In this document: piece after piece, positions 26,646 to 41,613 of the stretch
How positions within the stretch are numbered: position 1 is the stretch's first letter
How the letters are laid out: every line of letters begins with the position of its first letter
From: Planktothricoides sp. SR001
GTDB lineage: Bacteria; Cyanobacteriota; Cyanobacteriia; Cyanobacteriales; Laspinemataceae
Assembly (NCBI RefSeq): GCF_001276715.1
Contig: NZ_LIUQ01000017.1
Coordinates: forward strand, 1 to 64,000
Length of the DNA: 64,000 nt
Direction of reading: 5' to 3'
The notes under the pieces: generated by a model
Seen by the model: only the letters and a program-made list of their open reading frames with translations
The model's database searches: none
What the model was told of the DNA's origin: nothing
Translations under genes and position numbers: made by a program

Positions 26646-27042
26646 TCTCCGGTGCGATCCTGGGCCAAAAGAATTTCTGCTAAAAAAATCAAAGAAACAG
26701 CTATATTTACTGATGCTAATTTTGCGAAAATTATGCAAATATCATTATTTTATTTAATTTTTTAGGGGCGATCGTAATATCGTAATAATTATGGAGTTTG
26801 AGGTTTGATCAATTTAATATTTTTATGGAAAAAGAAAAATATTCTGTAAACGAGTCAAGAGATTATCCGGCAATCAATTGGGAAAACTCTGTCTCTCTCA
26901 GAGAGGGGAAAAATAACCGTTGACAATACAAATTGCTCAAAATGTTATATATTAGATTGGTTCATATTTTGCGTTCGCGTAGCGGTGCGGTGTACTATCG
27001 CGTAGCGGTGCGGTGTACTTTCCCCGAAAACAGAGAAATACC
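26646..27042. other. Intergenic region with tandem 23-bp repeat and candidate promoter
   Basis: CGCGTAGCGGTGCGGTGTACT occurs at 26976-26996 and again at 26999-27019, a 23-bp period; its core is a common short repeat of filamentous cyanobacteria. A TTGACA at 26920-26925 with a weak TGTTAT at 26943-26948 (17-bp spacing) could be a promoter for the next gene. The second repeat copy supplies an in-frame GTG (27013) that is not preferred as start. Confidence 0.6.
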
Positions 27043-27939
27043 ATGAACCCAGAACCAAAGCAGCGAAATATCCGCCCCAGGGCGATCCAGTATAATCCCC
27101 TAGACTGGAGTAATTACCGTCAGCGAGTGCAGGAATTTTGCGATCGCCTGAATTCTGTTTCTGACTGCGAGCAGTTGCTGCTCCTCTCAGAGGATTTTAT
27201 CAGAAATGAGAGCAAATACTATGCTTTAATTAGCGAAAAACAGTTTAAGAATTTTCAGCTAAGTTTAGCGGATTTGTCTAGTCTATTTCCCAAAAATCAC
27301 ACCGACCCAAATCGGTTAAAAATTTTGATGAAAATTCTCCTAGAACAGCAATTAGAAACCTGTTGGTATGATGAGTTTCCCCGCTATGTGAATGCTGAAG
27401 ATATCAAAAATGATGTCAAACTATACGATCTGACCACATCCCCTTCTGCTTATCCAATCAAGTTTTCTTTTATTGTGCTGCGAGAAAACGGAATTCACCG
27501 GATTATTAGTCAGATCGAACGTCGGATTCGAGGGTGGCTGAATCATCCAGCGGGGGGAACAGTGGGGATGAAAACGATCCAATCTAAGCTAGAAATGATT
27601 GTATTATTAAATGAAATATGCGATCGCGTCGGCAAAGTTTACGGAAAAGAAGTTTCTCTCCAAATTAATAGTATAATTAGAACCATTGAACATCAAAAAC
27701 ATCTGGCGCATTTGGGGTATTGGGCGCCGCCAAACAGTAGCCATAGTACCGGCTATGCGGCGGATATCGAACGCCGCTGGTATTACGACAATAATCGGCC
27801 ATTATTTACAATAATTGCACAAATTTTGCAGGATTATGAAAGTCGCTTGATTTTGAATGTCATTGACGAAGATCGAGTTTGGCATATTTGTCTAAATCCT
27901 GAGTGGATCGAGTTTTATCAAAAATTAATCAAAAGTTAA
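27043..27939 (+). CDS. LAS-type metallopeptidase-like protein (DUF5715-like)
   Basis: This 298-residue protein begins MNPEPKQRNIRPRAIQYNPLDW. Near the C terminus NSSHSTGYAADIERRWYY carries the H-x(6)-D zinc-binding pattern of LAS peptidases (VanY/peptidase M15-like). A downstream His in RVWHICLNPEW would be the second ligand. Such enzymes cut D-amino-acid or peptidoglycan cross-links. No signal peptide is visible, which is unusual for a peptidoglycan enzyme. ATG 27043 is chosen over GTG 27013, which lies inside a repeat. The gene is 30 bp upstream of an AsnB-type amidotransferase and probably co-transcribed. The family assignment is tentative. Confidence 0.7.
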   Translation: MNPEPKQRNIRPRAIQYNPLDWSNYRQRVQEFCDRLNSVSDCEQLLLLSEDFIRNESKYYALISEKQFKNFQLSLADLSSLFPKNHTDPNRLKILMKILLEQQLETCWYDEFPRYVNAEDIKNDVKLYDLTTSPSAYPIKFSFIVLRENGIHRIISQIERRIRGWLNHPAGGTVGMKTIQSKLEMIVLLNEICDRVGKVYGKEVSLQINSIIRTIEHQKHLAHLGYWAPPNSSHSTGYAADIERRWYYDNNRPLFTIIAQILQDYESRLILNVIDEDRVWHICLNPEWIEFYQKLIKS

Positions 27940-27969
27940 TTCTGGAAAATTATCAAACTTGCTTATCTT

Positions 27970-29517
27970 ATGTGTGGAATTGCGGTTATTTTTGGAGAAA
28001 ACGCCGAGTGCCAACAGTCAGAACTGTTGCAGATGATTGCGAGAATGGAGTCTCGCGGCGAGGTGACAGAAACATTTATTCATCCCCAGGTGGTGACAGG
28101 AACTAGACGACTGAAAATTGTCGATCGCGAAGCTTCCCAACAGCCAATTTTTAACCCTAATCGGGATAAGCTAGTGGTGTTTAATGGGGAAATTTTCAAT
28201 TTTGCCGAATTGCGTTCGCAGCTTGCGGAAAAGTACCCACTTAAAACTCATGGGGATACGGAAACTATTTTATATGCTTTTGAAGAATACGGGGAAAAGT
28301 GCGTTGATTTGTTTGAAGGTCAATTTGCCTTTGTCATCGTTGATTTAAAAGAAAATAAATTATTTTTTGCCCGCGACCCATTAGGAATTATCCCCCTCTA
28401 TTTTGTCCGTGATTCCCAGTTTTTGTATATTGCCTCTACCATTAAAGCCTTAACTCATTTAAACCAACCTATCGAGGTTTTATCCCCCGGTTGCTATCAG
28501 TGGAGTGATCTCCCCCCTGTCCAGTATTTTCAACCACAAATTTCAAGTCAAACCGCTACCCTTGAGGAATTTTTACCCCAACTGAAAACAACTTTAGTCG
28601 GTGCAATTCAAAGACGCACTGAAACCGATCTACCCATTGGGGTAATTTATAGTGGGGGTTTAGACAGTTCAATTGTTTTAAGTCAAGCAATTAAATATCA
28701 CCCCCAGGTGACGGCTTTTACTATTGGTTGTGAAGGCAGTGAAGACTTTGCCATTTCCCAGCGGTTTTGTCGCGATCGCGGCATTAAACAGGTGGTGATT
28801 TCTCTGCAACCGGAAGATTTCCGTCGCCACGATATTAAAGCCGCCATTCAAGAGTCTGAGTTAACGGAATATGGAGATATTATTAATGCGGCGATTAGTC
28901 TCAAATTGTTTGCCAAAATCCACGAAGCAGGGATTAAAGTGGTTTTGGGGGGAGATGGCAGTGATGAACTTTTTGGCGGTTATGAAATGTACGGTTTGGA
29001 AATGACGGACAGCAACCGACAAAATTTATTTTTTTATAAATTAATGAATCTGCACCGGACTGAATTGCAACGGGTAGATCGATGTAGTATGGCTTTTGGG
29101 GTAGAAACGAGAGTGCCGTTTTTAGCAAAACCCGTACTCGATCTGGCGTTAGCGACTCCCCAAACTTGGAAAATTAATGACGGTTTTGAAAAGTGGTGTT
29201 TGCGGCAAGCTTTTCAAGATGAACTGCCAGACTATATTATTAAACGTCACAAAAATCCCCTGTCTCACTCTAGCGGACTGCACGAATGGATTAGACGGTA
29301 TAAATGGTGTTTTCGCCATGACTACGATCGCGAACAGTATCGATTACATGATTCGCTGAAAAAAGACTTTTCAGCGATTTTAAGAGAAAATAAATATTCG
29401 GTTGATCTGGCGCTTATGGCCACTAAATATTCCCAGGACTATAGCCGTTTTGACTTGCTGCTAGAAGGAATCAAAGCGTCAGTGAGAACGGCAATTTTTC
29501 AATGGCGATCGCGCTGA
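27970..29517 (+). CDS. Asparagine synthetase (glutamine-hydrolysing)-like amidotransferase
   Basis: This 515-residue protein starts MCGIAVIFGE with the catalytic Cys2 of the Ntn-type glutaminase domain, followed by FNGEIFNFAELR and HGDTETILYAFEEYG. The synthetase domain has the PP-loop SGGLDSS (228-234) and LGGDGSDELFGGYEMY. Both halves appear active. It could make asparagine or, like Bacillus AsnB and Corynebacterium LtsA, amidate peptidoglycan precursors. The upstream LAS-like gene makes the latter worth considering. It is shorter than some AsnB proteins, with a variable C-terminal region. Confidence 0.9.
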   Translation: MCGIAVIFGENAECQQSELLQMIARMESRGEVTETFIHPQVVTGTRRLKIVDREASQQPIFNPNRDKLVVFNGEIFNFAELRSQLAEKYPLKTHGDTETILYAFEEYGEKCVDLFEGQFAFVIVDLKENKLFFARDPLGIIPLYFVRDSQFLYIASTIKALTHLNQPIEVLSPGCYQWSDLPPVQYFQPQISSQTATLEEFLPQLKTTLVGAIQRRTETDLPIGVIYSGGLDSSIVLSQAIKYHPQVTAFTIGCEGSEDFAISQRFCRDRGIKQVVISLQPEDFRRHDIKAAIQESELTEYGDIINAAISLKLFAKIHEAGIKVVLGGDGSDELFGGYEMYGLEMTDSNRQNLFFYKLMNLHRTELQRVDRCSMAFGVETRVPFLAKPVLDLALATPQTWKINDGFEKWCLRQAFQDELPDYIIKRHKNPLSHSSGLHEWIRRYKWCFRHDYDREQYRLHDSLKKDFSAILRENKYSVDLALMATKYSQDYSRFDLLLEGIKASVRTAIFQWRSR

Positions 29518-29763: not shown

Positions 29764-32280
29764 TTATATTGCTTGTACCATGCGACCAGAAATTACTTCC
29801 CAAGTACCTGGGGTAATACTTCGGGCTACATCACGACATTTAACCAGCAAATAACAGGCGTAAAAATAATCAGTCAGGGCTTGTTTTTCCCCTGGGGTTA
29901 AGTCTAACAGTTGTGGATCGAGTTGAAAACTATTTAACCAAGTTTCCCAGAGCACTTGGCGAAATTGACAATGAACTTCAGAAGAGTCATTGTTTCCAGG
30001 AATACTCGTTTGTAGGGCATTTAATCCCTCCAGCAGGGGAGAAATATCGCCAAATACTGAGAAGGTTTGTAATTGTTGGGCGACAATTCCTAGAAAGGCT
30101 AAATCTCTGGCTCGATCTAAAGATATTTCCCCTTGATTGGTCAAGACTTCATCGAAACTTAAGGAAAGATAACGCGCTCGATCTTGGGCGAGTTTTCGAG
30201 CCAGATTGCGGGTTAAATTTCTGGATAATTTGTCAATATCTAAAGGATGAGATAAGGCAAAGGTAAGATTTTGCCGGAAATCATTGGTTAGTCCACGAGT
30301 GTTATGAATAATGTCCGTCAGATTCACCCCTAAGCTATTAGATAGTTTTAAGCTGTTAATTAAGAGGAGATCGTTGTTGAGGGTTAAATTTAATTCATTA
30401 ATTAGCGGGTTTTCCTGCTGAAAAGTTTGCTGGAGGGCAAATACTGTAAATAGGGCTGCGGTTTTTTTAGCCGCAGGCAGGATGGTTTCTGAGTTGGTGT
30501 CACTGCTCCTCGTGGTGGCTTGCTCTGCCCACCGTAAGAGCGATCGCAGTTTGTTGGCATCGTTTTTGCTTTCCGAGTTGCCACCGTTTTGCTCATCCCG
30601 AACCGACGCCAGATATTCTTGGGCGCTGGCTTCAATTAACAATAGCAATTTATCCGCATTCGGAGTTTTCAAACCAGAGAAAAACAATAATACCTCTTGC
30701 CACCTCCAGACCGTTAGAGATTCTTTGACGATGTTGGCAATTAACCGATGTTCTATAATATATGCTGCGGCAAAAAACTCCTGAACCGTGGCATGAGAAA
30801 ATGCCAATAAATCCCTACTAATCGCCGTTAAAATTCCTGTATTTATGGCGATTTCCTTCAAAATATCCTCTGAAGCTTCCTTAGTTGCTGACTCGCTAAT
30901 TTGCCCCGGCATTTGACTGATTAAATCTGTCCGCAAAAAACAAAATCGTTCGGCAACTAACCCTTGATAGGCAATTTGGGATAGCCAAGATTTGAGCAAA
31001 TGTTGATTCAGGTTGAGGGCTGTTTTCTCTAGGACAATTTCTAAAGCTTGCTCATACAGTAAAATTCTATTTCCTGGGATTATCTGATCTTGATGATAGA
31101 CAAAACATAACAAATTTAAGCACAACGGCACTTGAGCTAATATTTTGGCGCTTTCATATTCTGGTTGTTGCAATGCTTGTAAAAACGATTTGGCTAAAAA
31201 TGTGGCTTTTGAGGTAGCTTCTGAGGTAGCTTCTGATATATTAACCGGAGAATTACCGGGAGAATTACCCGGAGAATTACCGGGAGAATTACCGGGAGAA
31301 TTACCGGGAGAATTACCGGGAGAATTACCCGGAGAATTACCGGGAGAATTACCGGGAGAATTACCCGGAGAATTACCCGGAGAATATAGATTGTTTTCCT
31401 GGTTTACTGCCACCGTAAACCAATGATGAATCAATTGGGCAATTTGCTGAGAAGAAAAATGGCTCAAAGCTACGGGCATAAACTTTTGCCACGGGTTAGG
31501 ATGACCAATGCGATCGCTAACAATAAAATAGTTGTTGGGGTATTGTTCAATAAACCGTTCGATTTGGGCGATCGTTTTTGGGCGTTGTTCGCTGTCTAAC
31601 TCATTCACCCCATCCAGCAAAATTAATAATCTTCCTTGTTCTAAGGCTTTTTTCGTCAGTTTTTCCGCCAGAGGAAACTCCGCACCGCGAAACAGATCCA
31701 GCAAACATTTTTCTAGATTCAGTTCTTGAAGTTTCAGGGTTTTACAAGAAATCAAAACTGGAAAATAAGTCCGAGGCAAAAATTTACCCAGCTTTTTGCC
31801 TTGAAGAGTATCCAGGCCAATTTTCCGCAACAAAGTAGACTTACCCGAACCCGCTACCCCAAACAGGACTAAATATTGATGTTCATTCACCATATCAATG
31901 GCTAATTCTTGGCGATGAATTTGATCCATCCAAGGCTCATAAGCTTTATTCAGTGATGAACTAGGGAGGTAACTTTCTGCCCTGGGGTTTTCTAGAGAAT
32001 TCAGTAATTCTGGCTGAGGCGACAGCCAACAATACATCTCTGTATAAATATCATTCAATGGCACGGAAGAATCAATGCCAAAGAGATTGACTTGGCCGTA
32101 TTTTTCCCAATATTGATGGGCATAAAGCGTCGCTGCCGTGGCGATCGCTTTTTCGGTTTTTTTGTCCAGACGTTTCTCAAAAATACCTAAAAATTTACCT
32201 TCCCCCTGATTCAGGGTTTCCAAGGTAATCTGACTAATATTTTTGGCCGCCTGAGAAATCAAGGTTTCAAGTCCAGTCAT
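29764..32280 (-). CDS. NACHT-domain NTPase (STAND family)
   Basis: This 838-residue protein has a helical N-terminal region (1-130), Walker A GVAGSGKST (141-149), Walker B LLILLDGVNELD (218-229) and the downstream SDRIGHPNPW element typical of NACHT. Residues about 300-347 are an SPGN repeat coded by a 12-bp minisatellite, placed inside the helical lid. LAQVPLCLNLLCF follows, then a long helical C-terminal part without recognisable TPR or WD repeats. STAND NTPases act as signal-dependent switches in stress, immunity and cell death. The sensor and effector domains here are not identified. It stands alone. The upstream region (32281-32724) is non-coding. Confidence 0.9.
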   Translation of the reverse strand: MTGLETLISQAAKNISQITLETLNQGEGKFLGIFEKRLDKKTEKAIATAATLYAHQYWEKYGQVNLFGIDSSVPLNDIYTEMYCWLSPQPELLNSLENPRAESYLPSSSLNKAYEPWMDQIHRQELAIDMVNEHQYLVLFGVAGSGKSTLLRKIGLDTLQGKKLGKFLPRTYFPVLISCKTLKLQELNLEKCLLDLFRGAEFPLAEKLTKKALEQGRLLILLDGVNELDSEQRPKTIAQIERFIEQYPNNYFIVSDRIGHPNPWQKFMPVALSHFSSQQIAQLIHHWFTVAVNQENNLYSPGNSPGNSPGNSPGNSPGNSPGNSPGNSPGNSPGNSPGNSPGNSPVNISEATSEATSKATFLAKSFLQALQQPEYESAKILAQVPLCLNLLCFVYHQDQIIPGNRILLYEQALEIVLEKTALNLNQHLLKSWLSQIAYQGLVAERFCFLRTDLISQMPGQISESATKEASEDILKEIAINTGILTAISRDLLAFSHATVQEFFAAAYIIEHRLIANIVKESLTVWRWQEVLLFFSGLKTPNADKLLLLIEASAQEYLASVRDEQNGGNSESKNDANKLRSLLRWAEQATTRSSDTNSETILPAAKKTAALFTVFALQQTFQQENPLINELNLTLNNDLLLINSLKLSNSLGVNLTDIIHNTRGLTNDFRQNLTFALSHPLDIDKLSRNLTRNLARKLAQDRARYLSLSFDEVLTNQGEISLDRARDLAFLGIVAQQLQTFSVFGDISPLLEGLNALQTSIPGNNDSSEVHCQFRQVLWETWLNSFQLDPQLLDLTPGEKQALTDYFYACYLLVKCRDVARSITPGTWEVISGRMVQAI
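31247..31387 (-). repeat. 12-bp minisatellite coding SPGN repeats
   Basis: Eleven full units of GGAGAATTACC(C/G) run from 31247 to 31378, with a partial twelfth to 31387; within the NACHT gene they code for the tetrapeptide SPGN. A second 12-bp motif (GCTTCTGAGGTA-like, coding SEAT) is repeated three times at about 31205-31240. Unit variants are confined to the C/G third-codon positions. Confidence 0.95.
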
Positions 32281-34530: not shown

Positions 34531-35025
34531 TACGCGATCGATTTTCGGTTTGATTCATTTAAGGCAATTGATTGGCTTCAGGGCATTTTCTCAAGTTATG
34601 CGGTTATTGAGTGCGGTTATTGAGTGCGGTTATTTGGTGCGGTTATTTGGTGCGGTGAAATTCAATCAGCGATCGCGATTATTTCCTCGTGAAATCACTG
34701 GATCGTGAAATCATTAGCTGGTGAAATCATTGATGAGATTTGATTTTCCCAAATCCTCGGTACGGATAAACCACACAATAGGTGACAATCAAGAACAACC
34801 CAGGTGACAATCTAAGACCGAAAATCCCAGGGATCTATCGGTAAAGATTTGCCAGAACAAAAGCACGAATCATCAAGAGGTAAGCTAAAGTAGAGATACG
34901 CCATCGTCCATGGCTGAAAAGCGTTTACTAGAAACCCGGGTTTGGGAAACTGCCAAAGGTGCAATCCACCAGCAGTTATTTCTAGGTTGAAGTCAGGGAG
35001 ATTTAGGCCCGAGGTAGGTGATTTT
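34531..35025. other. Intergenic region with 13-bp tandem repeats
   Basis: This 495-bp non-coding region has TGCGGTTATT(GAG/TGG) repeated with a 13-bp period at 34599, 34612, 34625 and 34638, plus a partial fifth unit. GTGAAATCA(C/T)T strings recur at about 34688-34735. The frame starting upstream at TTG 34942 is not part of the kinase. Confidence 0.75.
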
Positions 35026-38000
35026 ATGCTAGTTCACTCATTGCGTCTCCTGCTGGTTGATAAGCAAGAAGAGTCTTTTTCACGGATTAAGCAGTTCCTC
35101 AGTGAAATTGAGCTATTCACCAGTTCACTAGACTGGCAAACCAGCGCTAGTGGCGCGATCGCCTCGATCGCCGCCCGACCTTATGATGCCTATTTGGTGG
35201 ATGGGAAATTTGCGATCGCCAATGGTCATCAATTGTTCACAACGGTATTTACCCCCCAAAGCACTGCCCCAGTCTTATGGCTGGTTGAGAGTCTGGAGGA
35301 TGGCATTGCGGCGTTAAAAGCTGGCGCGGCAGACTATTTGATTCGCCGTCAGTTAAGCGCTGGTTTACTGGAACATTCTTTGCGGTTAACGGTGGAAATG
35401 GCGCGGTCTAAAGCACAACTGAGTGCTTATCACACTTGCTATCAAACAGACCTGCAAAAATACCCTCAATGTTCGATCGTCAATTTCCCCCAACTGATTG
35501 TGACTAATTTTCCCGATCCGGTTTTTATTACGGATCTTGAAGGAAACTTTCAGTTTGTTTCTCCTTGTCCTGAACCGATTTTTGGCTATTCTTGCTCTGA
35601 AATTCAGGGGTTCGGGAATATTGCTCGACTTTTGAGTCCCAGACTTTTTGACCTCCAGGATCTACAAAACCAACGAGAAATTCCCCATATTGAAACCAAA
35701 ATTATTGATAAATTTAATCAACTTCATCGTTTGTTAGTCACGGTTAAGTTAATTTTTGTTCCGGGAGAAGTGGCTACCGTGGCCAGCATTCTTTATATCT
35801 GCCATGAAATAAATCTACCCCAAGAGGAACCGGGCGATTTCAAAGGATCTAATCAATTATTGCCCCGAAACTCTGGAGAAGAATTGACTCCAGAAATTCA
35901 ACAAATCCGAGATTTAGAAGAAGCATTGCAGCAAAGTGAAGAGCGGTTTCGCATTACCTTTGAACAGGTGGGGGTTGGTCTATGTCATTTATCAACCACG
36001 GGACAATGGTTGCGAGTGAATGACAAATTTTGCCAGATTGTTGGCTATTCGCGATCGGAACTTTTAGGTAAAACTTGGCCGGAGATTACTCAACCAGAGG
36101 ATATTGAGTTAGAAAATAAGTTTTTGACTCAATTATTAGCAGGTAAAATGAATCACTGCTGTTTTGAAAAGCGGTTTATCTGTAAAGATTGCCGGGTGGT
36201 TTGGGTACAGATTACGACTACGGTATTACGGGACGGGCTGGGAGAGGCCGAATATTTGATTCAAGTGGTCGAAGATATTACCGAACGCCAAGAAAATCAA
36301 CTTCAAATTCAAAAATTAGCCGAGCGATTATTCACAGTCATTGATGCGGTGGGAGAAGGGATTACCCTGAGCGACGCCTTTGGTAATTTTATAATTTTTA
36401 ATCATAAAATGGAAGAAATCACGGGTTATAGTCCGTTGGAAGCGAATAATAGCCATGATTTTTTATCGTTAATTTATACGGAAAAAGAAGAAGAGTATAA
36501 AGCCAGAGAACATTTGTCGGAGTTATTGCAAAAAGGGCAAACCTATAATATTGAAACGACGATTCGGGCTAAAGATGGCTGCCGGAAAACTTTACTGGTT
36601 TCCAGTAATTTATTGCAACTGGGGGAGGAGCCTTGTTTTTTAAGTGCGTATCGAGATATTACCGAACGCCAAGCGGATCAAAAAGAACTCGCCAAACAAA
36701 AAGCCAATCTCGCGGAAGCCCAAAAAATTGCTCATTTGGGCAATTGGGAATTGGATGTGCAAACTTACAAACTTACTTGGTCAGAAGAGACATTTAGAAT
36801 TTTTGGTTTTGATGCCCAACAAGCAGAACCCCCGTATGAAAGAATTTTGGCCTTAATTCATCCCGACGATCTCGAACAGTGGCAAGCGACCCAACGGCAG
36901 GCGATCGCCTATCAAAAATCTTATGAAGTGGAATTACGCATTTTTCGACCGGATGGTTGTTTGCGGCATTTAGTTAGCAAAGGCAATCCCATTGTTAATT
37001 CCCAGGGTCAGGTGACGAAGATATTCGCCACCATGTTTGATATTACCGAACGGCAACGCATGGAGGAAGAACTGCGTCAAAGCAAACTGTTTATTGAAGC
37101 GATCGCTGATGCTTCTCCAGCTATTTTATATGTTTACGATCTGCGAACCGGGCGGAATATTTATGTGAATCACCAAATTTATCAAATCTTGGGATATAAA
37201 CCGGAGTATATTCAACAAAAAGGGTTTAATTTTTTATGGGAAACCATTCACCCGGACGACCAAAAATATCTCCAGGAATATTCTCACATATTCCCACATC
37301 TCCAACCGGGGGAAGTTTATGATATAGAATATCGCCAAGAACATATCAATGGTTCTTGGCATTGGTTCCGTTGTCGGTCGGTGGTATTTACTCGCGATGC
37401 GGACGGTAACCCGCAACAAATTATCGGCACCGCGATTGAGATTAGCGAAGAAAAGCGCATTCAAATGCAGTTGAAAGAAAGTGAAACTCGCTTAAATACG
37501 ATTATCAACAGTATTTCTGATGGGATTTTAATTGTCGATCGCCACGGCATCATCCGGTTTGCCAATCCGGCAGCCACGAAAATATTTGGTCGCCCCCTTT
37601 CACAGCTAAAAAATCAAGATTTAGGATGGCCAATGGTGGTGGGCAATACCGCCGAATTGGGGATTATTTTACCCAATGGAGAAGTGAGTTTTGGGGAAAT
37701 GACCGTTGCCGAAACGGAATGGGAAGGGGAATCGGTTTATGTGGTTTGTGTGCGGGATATCCATCAACGACGCAAAGCCGAAAAAGCCTTACGAGAAAGT
37801 GAAGAAAGATTTCGGCAATTAACGGAAAATATTGCAGTCTTGTTTTGGTTGATCGATGCTCAGACCCAGGAAATTCTTTATGTCAGTCCAGCTTATGAAA
37901 AAATCTCGGGACGGAGTTGCCAATCTTTATATGCGGATCCGAATAGTTGGATTGCCGCGATCGTCCCAGAGGATCGAGAAATGATTTTCACGCATCTGCC

Positions 38001-41000
38001 TAAACAGCGAGCGGGAGAATTGACCCAGATAGAATATCGGATTATGCGACCCGATGGGCAAATCCGGTGGATTGAAGCTCGGACTTTTCCGATTATCAAT
38101 GAAGAAGGGGTGATCGTGCGGATTGCAGGAATTGCTGAGGATATTAGCGAGGGCAAATGGCAACAGCAGCAATTAGAAAAATACCGCCATCGGCTGGTAG
38201 AACTGGTGAAAGAACGCACCAGTCAACTGAAAACCGAAGTCAGCCAACGTCAGCAAGCGGAATCAGAAATTTATTTTCAAGCCCGTTTATTAGATGTGGT
38301 AAATCATGCGATTATTGCCACGGATTTATCCGGGGTGATTATTTATTGGAACCGATATGCGGAAATTCTCTATGGTTGGTCTGCCCAAGAAGCATTAGGC
38401 CGCAATATTACAGACACCCTCGCCATATGGGAAAATCGCCAACAAGGTTTAGAGATGTTAAACCAACTCCGGCAAGGGAAAAATTGGACTGGGGAATTCC
38501 TGGTGCGCCATAAGAATGGCAAGATATTTCCGGTGATGGTCAACAATGCTCCTTTTAGAAATAAAGCGGGTGAACTGGTTGGGACTGTGGGGGTTTCTTA
38601 TGATATTTCTCAGCAAAAGCAGGCAGAAGAGGCGCTAAAAAAAGCCAATGCTTCCCTAGGGATTGCCGTGGAAGAACGCACGAAAGATTTAGCTGGGGCA
38701 ATCCAACGGTTGCAAGAAGAAATTATCCAGCGCCAAGAGGCAGAAATTGCCTTGCGGGATAGTGAACAAAGGTTTCGGGGAATGTTTGAACAAAGTGCTG
38801 TGGGCATGGTGTTGGCCGATCGCACGGGAAAATGGCTGCGAGTGAATCAAAAATTTTGTGAATTTTTAGGCTATTCGGAGTCAGAGTTATTACACATGAC
38901 ATGGGCAGACATTACCTACTCAGAGGATATGCTCAAATCCACCGATCTGGTTAGGCAGTTATTTAAAGGTGAGATTGATAGCTTTACCCTGGAAAAGCGA
39001 TATTTGTGTAAAAATGGTGATATTAAATGGGGTCATTTAAGCTTTTCTTATGTGCGATCGCCCGGAGGAGATCCGATTTATTGTTTAGGGGTGATTGAGG
39101 ATATTTCCGAACGCAAGCAAGCGGAAACTCAGTTGCGCGATCGCCTCCACTTAGAAATGGCTTTAGCCGAAGTTTCTCGCGAGTTAGCCAATCAACAAGT
39201 AACCAATTTGTATCGGGTGCTGCAACTGCTGGGGATGGCGGTACAAGCCAACCTTGCTTATTTAATTGTCTTTGAGTTAGAAAGTAACCTGCTCAAGGAA
39301 GTCTATGATTGGTCTGATTTCGAGCGTCCGGAAAATCTTGATAAGTTCTTCAAAATCAATCGAGCATTATTACCCTGGTGGACCGAACAACTAAACCGGA
39401 AGCAAAACCTGGTGATTTCCCAGATCAAAAATTTGCCCCCTGAAGCCGAACTGGAGAAAAATATTCTTCAAGATTTGCGGGTTGGCTCGATGATTACCGT
39501 ACCAATTCACAGCCCAGGGGGACAACTTTGGGCAGAAATTGGCTTTATTACCTTGGAAGATAACTTAAAAAATTGGTCTGAGCAAGACGCTCAGTTATTA
39601 AGAATAGTGGGCGAAATGCTTTCTAGTTATTGGACTAACCAGCGCGATCGCGAAAGATTGCGGAACTCAGAAGAACTCTATGCTGGCATCTTCCAACATT
39701 CCGCCGAAAGTATCTTTTTGTTAAAGCTGACTGATGATAATCGCTTTATTTATGAAACGATCAACCCTAGCTATGAAAAAAATTTTAAAGTTAAAAAAGA
39801 AGAAGTTTTTGGCAAGTATTTAGACGAAGTTTTACCCATAAATCTGGCCAAAAACTTCCATAAAAAATTTCACAACTATCTTAAAAAATCGGAAGCTATC
39901 AGCTATGAAGAAGTCGTAGATTTACCCGAAGAAACGAAAATATTACGCACGATTCTTTTGCCGATCAAGGATGAATCGGGCAAAATCATCAAACTACAAG
40001 GCAGTTCTAGGGATATTACTGAAGAAAAACAATTTCAAACGGAATTAGAACAAGCGAAACTGGCTGCCGAATCCGCCAACCGAGCCAAGAGTGAATTTTT
40101 GGCGAACATGAGCCATGAACTGCGAACGCCACTGAATGCCATTCTCGGATTTACCCAAATCATGCGACGGGATCTTAACCTGTTAGAAACCCACCGAGAA
40201 CAATTATCGATTATTCATCGATCGGGAGAACATTTACTCTCATTAATTAATGATATTTTAGACTTGTCCAAAATTGAACTAGGTCGAATTTACCTGGAAT
40301 TCCATAACTTTGACTTTTATCTGATGTTGGCAAGTCTCAAAGAAATGCTACAAGTTAAGGCGGATGCTAAAAATTTAGCCTTTCAGATTGAATGTTCTTC
40401 GGAAGTTCCTCAATATCTAGAAACCGATGATAAAAAATTACGCTCAACCTTAATTAACCTGGTTGGTAATGCCATTAAATTTACTGAATATGGCAGTGTT
40501 GTCTTACGAGTCAGTTTGGCAGACTATGGTTATTTTCCCCCAGCGGATGTCAGTAGCTTCCGCCTCAACCAGAAAAAGTTAAAACTGCATTTTGAAATTG
40601 AAGATACAGGCCCGGGGATTGCCTTTGAAGAAATGGATACGTTGTTTCAACCTTTTATTCAAACCAAAACCGGGGAAAAATCAGCGGAAGGCACTGGCTT
40701 AGGTCTAGCCATCAGCCAAAGATTTGTGCGACTAATGGGCGGAGAAATTACCGTCACTTCTAAAGTCGATATGGGTTCGATTTTTAAATTTGACATTCTC
40801 TGTGCAGAAGGCACTCAAATTAAATTAATCCCCCCAGAAGTCTCTCAACGGGCGATCGCTCTAGCCCCCAATCAACCTACCTATCGAATTCTGGTGGTCG
40901 AAGATCAATGGACTAACCTAAAACTGCTTACCAATATCCTGGAACCTGTGGGGTTTGCCGTCTGTGAAGCCCAAAATGGTTTGGAAGGCTTGGAGGTCTG

Positions 41001-41613
41001 GCAGCGTTGGCAACCGCACTTAATTTTTATGGATCTGAGAATGCCCGTCATGGATGGTTATCAAGCCACCCAACAAATTAGAATCCAAGAACAACAGCGC
41101 CGCCAAAAAAAATTCACCTTTAAAGGCAAAATTTTTGCTGGCCATAACTTGATGCGCTCATCATCAGTTAACGCCCAAGACCCGGTGGATCATACGGTGA
41201 TTATTGCCTTAACTGCCAGTGCCTTTGAATCTAATCGCTCGGTGGTCTTAGACGTAGGCTGTGATGATTTTATTCCTAAGCCTTTTGAGGAAAATGTCCT
41301 CCTAGAAAAAATTGCACATCACTTGGGGGTACAGTATCTTTATGAAAGAACCGCTTATGGAGAATTTTTGCCTGATCGCTTTCCGCCACAAACCCAGGAT
41401 CAACTGATTACCTCAGAAAGCTTAAGTGTGATGCCGAATGAATGGATTCTTGAACTCCGTTCCTCCGCCCTCGCTGCCCGAGAACAACGGATTTATAAAT
41501 TGATTTCACAAATCCCGGAAGCCGATAAATGGCTGGCTGTGGGTCTAACTAATTTAGTAAAAAATCTTCTCTTCGATCAGATAGTTGACTTAACCCAACC
41601 CTATTATGAATAA
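35026..41613 (+). CDS. Multi-PAS hybrid sensor histidine kinase
   Basis: This very large (2195-residue) signalling protein has in order: an N-terminal receiver-like domain (LRLLLVDKQEES..., AYLVDGKF); about ten PAS domains; one GAF domain between PAS 9 and PAS 10; HisKA with the phospho-His in SHELRTPLNAILGF; HATPase_c (NLVGNAIKFTE, DTGPGIAFEE, GTGLGLAIS); and a C-terminal receiver with the phospho-Asp in IFMDLRMPVMDG and Lys in FIPKPFEE. PAS 2 and PAS 9 are close paralogues (WLRVN.KFC...GYS.SELL). ATG 35026 is chosen over TTG 34942 because the domain starts there and GAGG lies upstream. No membrane helix is evident, so it is probably cytosolic. Signals are unknown. It overlaps the next kinase gene by 8 bp. 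Confidence 0.93.
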   Translation: MLVHSLRLLLVDKQEESFSRIKQFLSEIELFTSSLDWQTSASGAIASIAARPYDAYLVDGKFAIANGHQLFTTVFTPQSTAPVLWLVESLEDGIAALKAGAADYLIRRQLSAGLLEHSLRLTVEMARSKAQLSAYHTCYQTDLQKYPQCSIVNFPQLIVTNFPDPVFITDLEGNFQFVSPCPEPIFGYSCSEIQGFGNIARLLSPRLFDLQDLQNQREIPHIETKIIDKFNQLHRLLVTVKLIFVPGEVATVASILYICHEINLPQEEPGDFKGSNQLLPRNSGEELTPEIQQIRDLEEALQQSEERFRITFEQVGVGLCHLSTTGQWLRVNDKFCQIVGYSRSELLGKTWPEITQPEDIELENKFLTQLLAGKMNHCCFEKRFICKDCRVVWVQITTTVLRDGLGEAEYLIQVVEDITERQENQLQIQKLAERLFTVIDAVGEGITLSDAFGNFIIFNHKMEEITGYSPLEANNSHDFLSLIYTEKEEEYKAREHLSELLQKGQTYNIETTIRAKDGCRKTLLVSSNLLQLGEEPCFLSAYRDITERQADQKELAKQKANLAEAQKIAHLGNWELDVQTYKLTWSEETFRIFGFDAQQAEPPYERILALIHPDDLEQWQATQRQAIAYQKSYEVELRIFRPDGCLRHLVSKGNPIVNSQGQVTKIFATMFDITERQRMEEELRQSKLFIEAIADASPAILYVYDLRTGRNIYVNHQIYQILGYKPEYIQQKGFNFLWETIHPDDQKYLQEYSHIFPHLQPGEVYDIEYRQEHINGSWHWFRCRSVVFTRDADGNPQQIIGTAIEISEEKRIQMQLKESETRLNTIINSISDGILIVDRHGIIRFANPAATKIFGRPLSQLKNQDLGWPMVVGNTAELGIILPNGEVSFGEMTVAETEWEGESVYVVCVRDIHQRRKAEKALRESEERFRQLTENIAVLFWLIDAQTQEILYVSPAYEKISGRSCQSLYADPNSWIAAIVPEDREMIFTHLPKQRAGELTQIEYRIMRPDGQIRWIEARTFPIINEEGVIVRIAGIAEDISEGKWQQQQLEKYRHRLVELVKERTSQLKTEVSQRQQAESEIYFQARLLDVVNHAIIATDLSGVIIYWNRYAEILYGWSAQEALGRNITDTLAIWENRQQGLEMLNQLRQGKNWTGEFLVRHKNGKIFPVMVNNAPFRNKAGELVGTVGVSYDISQQKQAEEALKKANASLGIAVEERTKDLAGAIQRLQEEIIQRQEAEIALRDSEQRFRGMFEQSAVGMVLADRTGKWLRVNQKFCEFLGYSESELLHMTWADITYSEDMLKSTDLVRQLFKGEIDSFTLEKRYLCKNGDIKWGHLSFSYVRSPGGDPIYCLGVIEDISERKQAETQLRDRLHLEMALAEVSRELANQQVTNLYRVLQLLGMAVQANLAYLIVFELESNLLKEVYDWSDFERPENLDKFFKINRALLPWWTEQLNRKQNLVISQIKNLPPEAELEKNILQDLRVGSMITVPIHSPGGQLWAEIGFITLEDNLKNWSEQDAQLLRIVGEMLSSYWTNQRDRERLRNSEELYAGIFQHSAESIFLLKLTDDNRFIYETINPSYEKNFKVKKEEVFGKYLDEVLPINLAKNFHKKFHNYLKKSEAISYEEVVDLPEETKILRTILLPIKDESGKIIKLQGSSRDITEEKQFQTELEQAKLAAESANRAKSEFLANMSHELRTPLNAILGFTQIMRRDLNLLETHREQLSIIHRSGEHLLSLINDILDLSKIELGRIYLEFHNFDFYLMLASLKEMLQVKADAKNLAFQIECSSEVPQYLETDDKKLRSTLINLVGNAIKFTEYGSVVLRVSLADYGYFPPADVSSFRLNQKKLKLHFEIEDTGPGIAFEEMDTLFQPFIQTKTGEKSAEGTGLGLAISQRFVRLMGGEITVTSKVDMGSIFKFDILCAEGTQIKLIPPEVSQRAIALAPNQPTYRILVVEDQWTNLKLLTNILEPVGFAVCEAQNGLEGLEVWQRWQPHLIFMDLRMPVMDGYQATQQIRIQEQQRRQKKFTFKGKIFAGHNLMRSSSVNAQDPVDHTVIIALTASAFESNRSVVLDVGCDDFIPKPFEENVLLEKIAHHLGVQYLYERTAYGEFLPDRFPPQTQDQLITSESLSVMPNEWILELRSSALAAREQRIYKLISQIPEADKWLAVGLTNLVKNLLFDQIVDLTQPYYE

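Follow-up and report, generated by a model that had tools for sequence, protein, structure and literature searches.

The window is a stretch of 64,000 nucleotides from Planktothricoides sp. SR001, part of contig C80 in a genome of 7.07 Mb (G000), and its genes read as those of a cyanobacterium. Two adjacent genes, P1 and P2, lie on its (+) strand and are separated by 30 bp (Table 1). An in-frame GTG at 27013 is an alternative start of P1. No signal peptide or membrane helix is found in either protein by hydropathy, the highest 19-residue means being 0.79 for P1 and 1.22 for P2, and a PADLOC scan gives no match to either of them. A 21-bp exact direct repeat, CGCGTAGCGGTGCGGTGTACT, is located directly upstream of P1. 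On the other side of the pair, a NACHT protein (Pfam NACHT 2.4e-11, NCH2 3.2e-10) with an SPGN-type repeat run in its middle matches the PADLOC candidate PDC-S60 at 3.9e-13, and a large frame further on reads, from its translation, as a multi-PAS hybrid histidine kinase-like protein.

Table 1. Features of the P1–P2 locus and its surroundings in the window.
Feature	Position	Strand	Basis or remark
Direct repeat, 21 bp, two copies	26976 and 26999 (26976-27019)		exact
P1, 298 aa: helical N-terminal part and C-terminal LAS-fold zinc domain (model)	27043..27939	+	ATG start, stop at 27939
LAS domain of P1, residues 134-298 (model)	27442..27936	+	AlphaFold2, pTM 0.72, mean pLDDT 74.4, 11 rows (7 VanY-like)
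His234, predicted zinc ligand 1	27742..27744	+	4/4 homologues; aligned to VanY-like proteins
Asp241, predicted zinc ligand 2	27763..27765	+	4/4 homologues; aligned to VanY-like proteins
Glu276, invariant, -5 from last zinc His; possible displaced base	27868..27870	+	4/4 homologues
His281, predicted zinc ligand 3; position -3 holds R/Q/R/K, not Glu	27883..27885	+	homologue and VanY-like alignments
P2, 515 aa: glutamine-dependent AsnB-family amidotransferase	27970..29517	+	ATG start
Cys2, glutaminase nucleophile	27973..27975	+	P2 alignment
SGGLDSS, ATP-pyrophosphatase loop	28651..28671	+	P2 alignment
EYGDIINA, acceptor-site motif of pair-linked P2 proteins (E. coli AsnB VTTIRAS region)	28867..28890	+	4/4
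NACHT protein	29764-32280	-	Pfam
2223-aa frame	34942-41613	+	translation

Of 388 genomes of the order, five contain a P1 homologue, the genome itself and one of the same species included, and they represent four lineages. A second draw from the order gives 5 of 387, one of which is a weak match in G444 (1.3e-5, over residues 23-161 and within a frame of 904 aa) that is not counted as a pair; the family of G517 gives 1 of 61 and the phylum 2 of 386, and these draws overlap. P2 lies directly downstream in all five genomes with a full P1, with gaps of 30 bp in G000, in G402 (the same species, with a locus that matches the window at 99.9% identity across 18 kb) and in G298, 12 bp in G517 and 4 bp in G409. 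Between loci, P1 proteins are 40–57% and P2 proteins 60–75% identical, and the two values rise and fall together (r = 0.94, six locus pairs). The P1–P2 pair is a conserved unit, found together across distant species. It also seems to move between lineages.

Across the four lineages, the flanks of about 18–20 kb contain no common gene: 96 ORFs of at least 90 aa gave three weak, superfamily-level matches (23–32% identity), which link ATPases with each other or ORFs that resemble short-chain dehydrogenases, as labelled by reading. Among 100 small ORFs (20–90 aa) that lie no more than 1 kb from the pair, none has a match at another of the four loci at E ≤ 0.01, a comparison that can miss short peptides. 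The same-genus genome G503 contains no close copy of the MscS gene that neighbours the pair in the window. A P2-like match at E ≤ 0.001 is present in at least 145 of the 386 phylum genomes, and relatives at 23–29% identity occur at 17 loci of viral contigs, with 17 further records in phages. Among the matches listed for the phylum draw, the P1 carriers are the two genomes with a close full-length P2, the own genome and G298 (69%); the next full-length matches are 31–33% identical, and partial matches, which mainly cover the glutaminase part, go up to 46%. Two scans of viral contigs, and scans of plasmids and phages, reveal no P1 relative. Two scans of genome contigs by short exact peptide patterns find none either; since these patterns also miss the known pair genomes, and the homology searches covered this phylum, absence of P1 outside the phylum is not shown. 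No published account of the pair is found among the matches listed in a literature search, as judged from titles and the opening of abstracts, and a search on DUF5715 returns no papers.

P1 contains H234-x(6)-D241 within SSHSTGYAAD, which matches the SxHxxGxAxD zinc motif, and H281 within VWH. The H-x(6)-D and later His noticed in an earlier note on this DNA are thus present, and all three residues are identical in the four distinct P1 homologues, two of which have Thr in place of the motif's first Ser. The pattern [ST]xHxxGxAxD appears in 1 of 20,000 shuffles of P1. The LAS zinc triad is defined as H-x(3-6)-D...H in a passage of PMC4087270. Pfam DUF5715 scores P1 at 25.5 bits, or 26.1 in the genome search, close to its gathering cut-off of 26.8, which the G298 homologue exceeds with 27.0; all four homologues match this family at E ≤ 1, the best at 3.9e-7. 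For comparison, eight VanY-like proteins were collected from seven of the eight non-pair DUF5715 loci in the phylum with the patterns H..G.A.D and [WPHF]H[FILVA]. L110 was dropped as no frame fits the patterns, and L111 gave two proteins, of which the one adjoining the DUF5715 match serves as the L111 row in the model alignment. The alignment of P1 with this set is convincing from the RT..xQ..L stretch through WH, and a profile comparison lends weak support (59% probability, E 9e-5, 70 columns).

The C-terminal domain of P1 models as a LAS fold. An AlphaFold2 model based on the four P1 proteins alone (pTM 0.52, mean pLDDT 63.8) has the C-terminal strand-helix order of the LAS core, and its best LAS match by VIA, ChiX, appears at rank 13 (Z 4.7) amid unrelated rows. 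For the model of residues 134–298 (Table 1), VIA ranks 1–46 of the best 50 are Hedgehog N-domains or peptidoglycan metallopeptidases with Z from 8.5 to 5.0, of which just three chains reach Z 8, and VIA values below 8 can reflect a common arrangement; the first non-LAS fold follows at Z 4.8. The matches include ShhN (Z 8.5, rmsd 3.3, 115 aligned), LysB4 (Z 7.8, rmsd 3.6, 117 aligned), LdcB (Z 7.3, rmsd 3.4, 116 aligned) and VanX (Z 7.0, rmsd 3.8, 128 aligned), and some of the top ones, VldE included, we take to be grouped as LAS. The structure prediction suggested in the earlier note is therefore in favor of a LAS fold, with the caution that the seven VanY-like rows may pull the model toward it. 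A Foldseek search of the PDB with both models gives no match at E ≤ 0.001; for the domain model the first three rows are LAS-type endopeptidases, the best at 3.0e-3 (LysECD7). By sequence, the best PDB matches of P1 are HIV gp41 fragments (0.0051 and 0.0016), which cover about 25 residues of one helix and were taken as chance.

P1 thus shares with the LAS zinc domains (VanY/LdcB/VanX, L-Ala-D-Glu endolysins, the Hedgehog N-domain and DUF5715) the predicted fold, the H-x(6)-D...H residues, the RT..xQ..L lead-in and the WH ahead of the last strand, but differs by an extra helical N-terminal part, the absence of an export signal by hydropathy and a DUF5715 score around the cut-off. Another difference concerns catalysis. 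In LAS peptidases the catalytic residue, Glu or His, stands three or two positions ahead of the last zinc His, as exemplified in a passage of PMC4087270 by Glu204/His207 of LdcB and the H-X-H motif, and Glu occupies −3 in all eight VanY-like proteins compared. In the four P1 homologues, neither an acidic residue nor a His is observed at −3 or −2 of H281; the residues are R/Q/R/K and V, respectively. Instead, Glu276 at −5 is invariant. In Sonic hedgehog, as described in part of PMC4102407, Glu177 lies six residues ahead of the zinc ligand His183, so the position of this Glu relative to the last zinc His can vary. With the usual catalytic residue missing and Glu276 invariant, P1 would be either a zinc-dependent peptidase whose base is displaced or a binding protein, and trimming by P1 is doubtful. 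Thus, of the LAS peptidase type proposed for the first gene in the earlier note, the zinc triad and the modelled fold stand and the catalytic Glu/His does not.

P2 begins with MCGIA and carries NGE and SGGLDSS, and its glutaminase and ATP-pyrophosphatase sites appear intact from the sequence, which agrees with the complete Cys2 glutamine amidotransferase recognised previously next to the first gene. The Pfam families Asn_synthase (182 bits) and GATase_7 (128 bits) are matched. Among the NCBIfam models, P2 passes TIGR01536 for asparagine synthase (324 bits, cut-off 267) but stays below the cut-offs of PRK09431 (338 against 499), of TIGR03104 for the NAGGN amidotransferase (213 against 570) and of NF033535 for the lasso cyclase (140 against 525). 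The closest solved structure by sequence is E. coli AsnB (1ct9, 8.7e-55). Both proteins have the two-domain layout with an N-terminal Cys glutaminase and a PP-loop, and P2 shows no insertion of four or more residues relative to AsnB. Their acceptor sites differ: the VTTIRAS stretch of E. coli AsnB, whose TTxRAS region presumably supplies the Asp-binding residues, is changed to YGDIINA in all four pair-linked P2 proteins. In the nearest relatives found outside the pair loci (37–38% identity), the same stretch is AIDAMDS and AIDVMDS in two Streptomyces proteins and PVDISDM in a Tistrella pTM2 protein, each with an Asp as in P2.

A 40-row tree and a trimmed 33-row tree both unite the four pair-linked P2 proteins in one clade (100/100), which joins the Tistrella and the two Streptomyces proteins with 100/99 and 100/100, respectively. 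In the 33-row tree, a constraint uniting P2 with the AsnB proteins of E. coli and Bacteroides is rejected (p-AU 1.49e-6); this group was named after the first tree, in answer to a question already posed by the earlier note. The longer AsnB proteins (20 rows, 584–656 aa as read) form a clade that does not contain P2 and includes no verified LtsA or Bacillus AsnB; we assume LtsA and the Listeria and Bacillus AsnB to be about 100 aa longer than P2. The phylogeny proposed as a check therefore separates P2 from E. coli AsnB and does not bring it to the longer AsnB proteins. Admission to the trees required an MCG-type start and SGGxDS in the frame, which left out L025, L032 and L036 among others; the 40-row tree omits the partial copies L055–L058 and the second readings of L051–L053, the 33-row tree the long branches L053, L099 and L101 and five near-duplicates. 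A presumed Listeria AsnB reference is an unverified wastewater contig and was kept just as an unproven 631-aa AsnB; its neighbour is bile-salt-hydrolase-like by reading. The S. clavuligerus beta-lactam synthetase reference is not in the trees.

In the tree, P2 is separated from its Tistrella/Streptomyces relatives by a long distance of about 2.7 changes per column, so their substrate class is not transferable to P2. Their neighbours differ from those of P2, and no DUF5715- or LAS-like gene is among the annotated ones shown. One Streptomyces gene adjoins an adenylation/carrier/thioesterase gene as well as two EPSP-synthase-like genes; genes for an NRPS and a halogenase lie close to the other. 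In Tistrella, the gene overlaps that of a methyltransferase; the stretch shown contains no NRPS gene, and the neighbours name no clear pathway. The NRPS-side neighbours in Streptomyces are leads toward a peptide substrate, not proof. A different protein of the AsnB family, about 500 aa in length and carrying the motif ESFDxxLVRSAIPCY or one close to it, has a SAM-methyltransferase-like neighbour (424–436 aa, labelled by reading) at three of four loci, L046 (G305), L047 (G284) and L048 (G111).

What P2 amidates has to be judged from these features together with the genome contents. As P2 passes the TIGR01536 cut-off, it would be annotated as asparagine synthase, a label that is probably wrong by the acceptor motif, the tree and the pairing. 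The view in the earlier note that the pair does something other than make asparagine is strengthened by the separation of P2 from the E. coli-type synthetase, while asparagine stays a rival because P2 is the sole strong Asn_synthase match in G000; two more matches barely pass (28.9 and 22.5 bits, cut-off 21) and are 245-aa and 583-aa frames aligned over 56–62 positions. P2 would then be a divergent synthetase of free asparagine with P1 as its partner or regulator. This would fit the absence of AsnA in all ten genomes searched (the control search does detect it in both E. coli and Bacteroides) and the presence of AsnRS, which requires free Asn, in eight of eight. It would also fit the same-genus G503, which has no P1 and carries a different, longer AsnB. 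However, gatB, like AsnRS, is above its cut-off in the same eight genomes, G002 among them (the AsnRS and gatB copies of G409 are broken by an in-frame stop), and tRNA-dependent amidation with GatCAB is an established route to asparagine. G002 and G066 have no AsnA and TIGR01536 matches of at most 62 bits (best 61), thus asparagine can be obtained otherwise, for example by GatCAB. The genome contents settle an asparagine role in G000 neither way; given the altered acceptor stretch and the rejected E. coli grouping, we consider it quite unlikely. The earlier note had instead proposed that the pair remodels or amidates cell-wall peptides. P2 would amidate the D-iGlu or mDAP carboxylate of peptidoglycan precursors in the cytosol or of recycled muropeptides, and these peptides would also be the ones that P1 trims. 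The peptidase rows matching the P1 domain model are indeed peptidoglycan peptidases. AsnB relatives amidate mDAP in Listeria, Bacillus and Corynebacterium according to parts of PMC8554201, and passages of PMC11189452 report amidated cyanobacterial muropeptides and a cyanobacterial DD-peptidase that prefers D-iGln peptides. The mDAP amidotransferases share superfamily and chemistry with P2 but carry an extra loop, named in the Fig. 5 legend of PMC8554201, for which P2 has no fitting insertion, and P2 is outside the longer AsnB clade. As the pair occurs in just 5 of 388 genomes, it cannot be the usual source of the cyanobacterial peptidoglycan amide, though it could add this amide in a few lineages. 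P1 also lacks the usual catalytic residue. Nothing singles out peptidoglycan amidation for the pair, and the proposal is not supported as a specific claim; we rate it as unlikely.

Related logic is known from peptide systems. Lasso peptide systems combine a peptidase with an AsnB-like ligase, and in the NAGGN system an AsnB-like amidotransferase acts on a small peptide and is encoded in an operon with a peptidase; both resemble the P1–P2 arrangement. The NAGGN system differs from the pair by the TIGR03104 score of P2, and no ngg-like neighbour is recognised at the window locus. A lasso B/C-like maturase, in which P1 would act on a ribosomal precursor that P2 closes or caps, is very improbable: P2 does match the lasso cyclase model, but at about a quarter of its cut-off, none of the small ORFs near the pair recurs between the four loci, although short peptides can escape, and the intact glutaminase suggests that P2 transfers ammonia and does not close a ring.

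We tentatively favor, at somewhat less than an even chance, a cytosolic two-gene module that amidates a carboxylate other than that of aspartate, probably of a peptide-like compound, with P1 as a binding or trimming partner. P2 would hydrolyse glutamine, adenylate this carboxylate and yield a primary carboxamide. P1, as a LAS-fold protein that would bind zinc in the cell, may recognise the same, probably peptide-like, compound. It would either trim the compound first, exposing the carboxylate to be capped by P2, or hold it for P2. Against this reading, no transporter, NRPS or other gene is common to the four loci; P1 is without the usual catalytic residue, and P2 both passes TIGR01536 and has no strong Asn_synthase companion in its genome. 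A narrower form of the same module is possible but less likely: a cytosolic LAS domain lacking the usual base would be the substrate module of the amidotransferase, and the products would be C-terminal or side-chain peptide amides of a cyanobacterial compound.

For the AsnB family, EYGDIINA together with a DUF5715-like neighbour is a simple marker for spotting the P2 group. The pair would give a small, testable case of a cytosolic LAS domain with an altered catalytic site that is coupled to amide formation.
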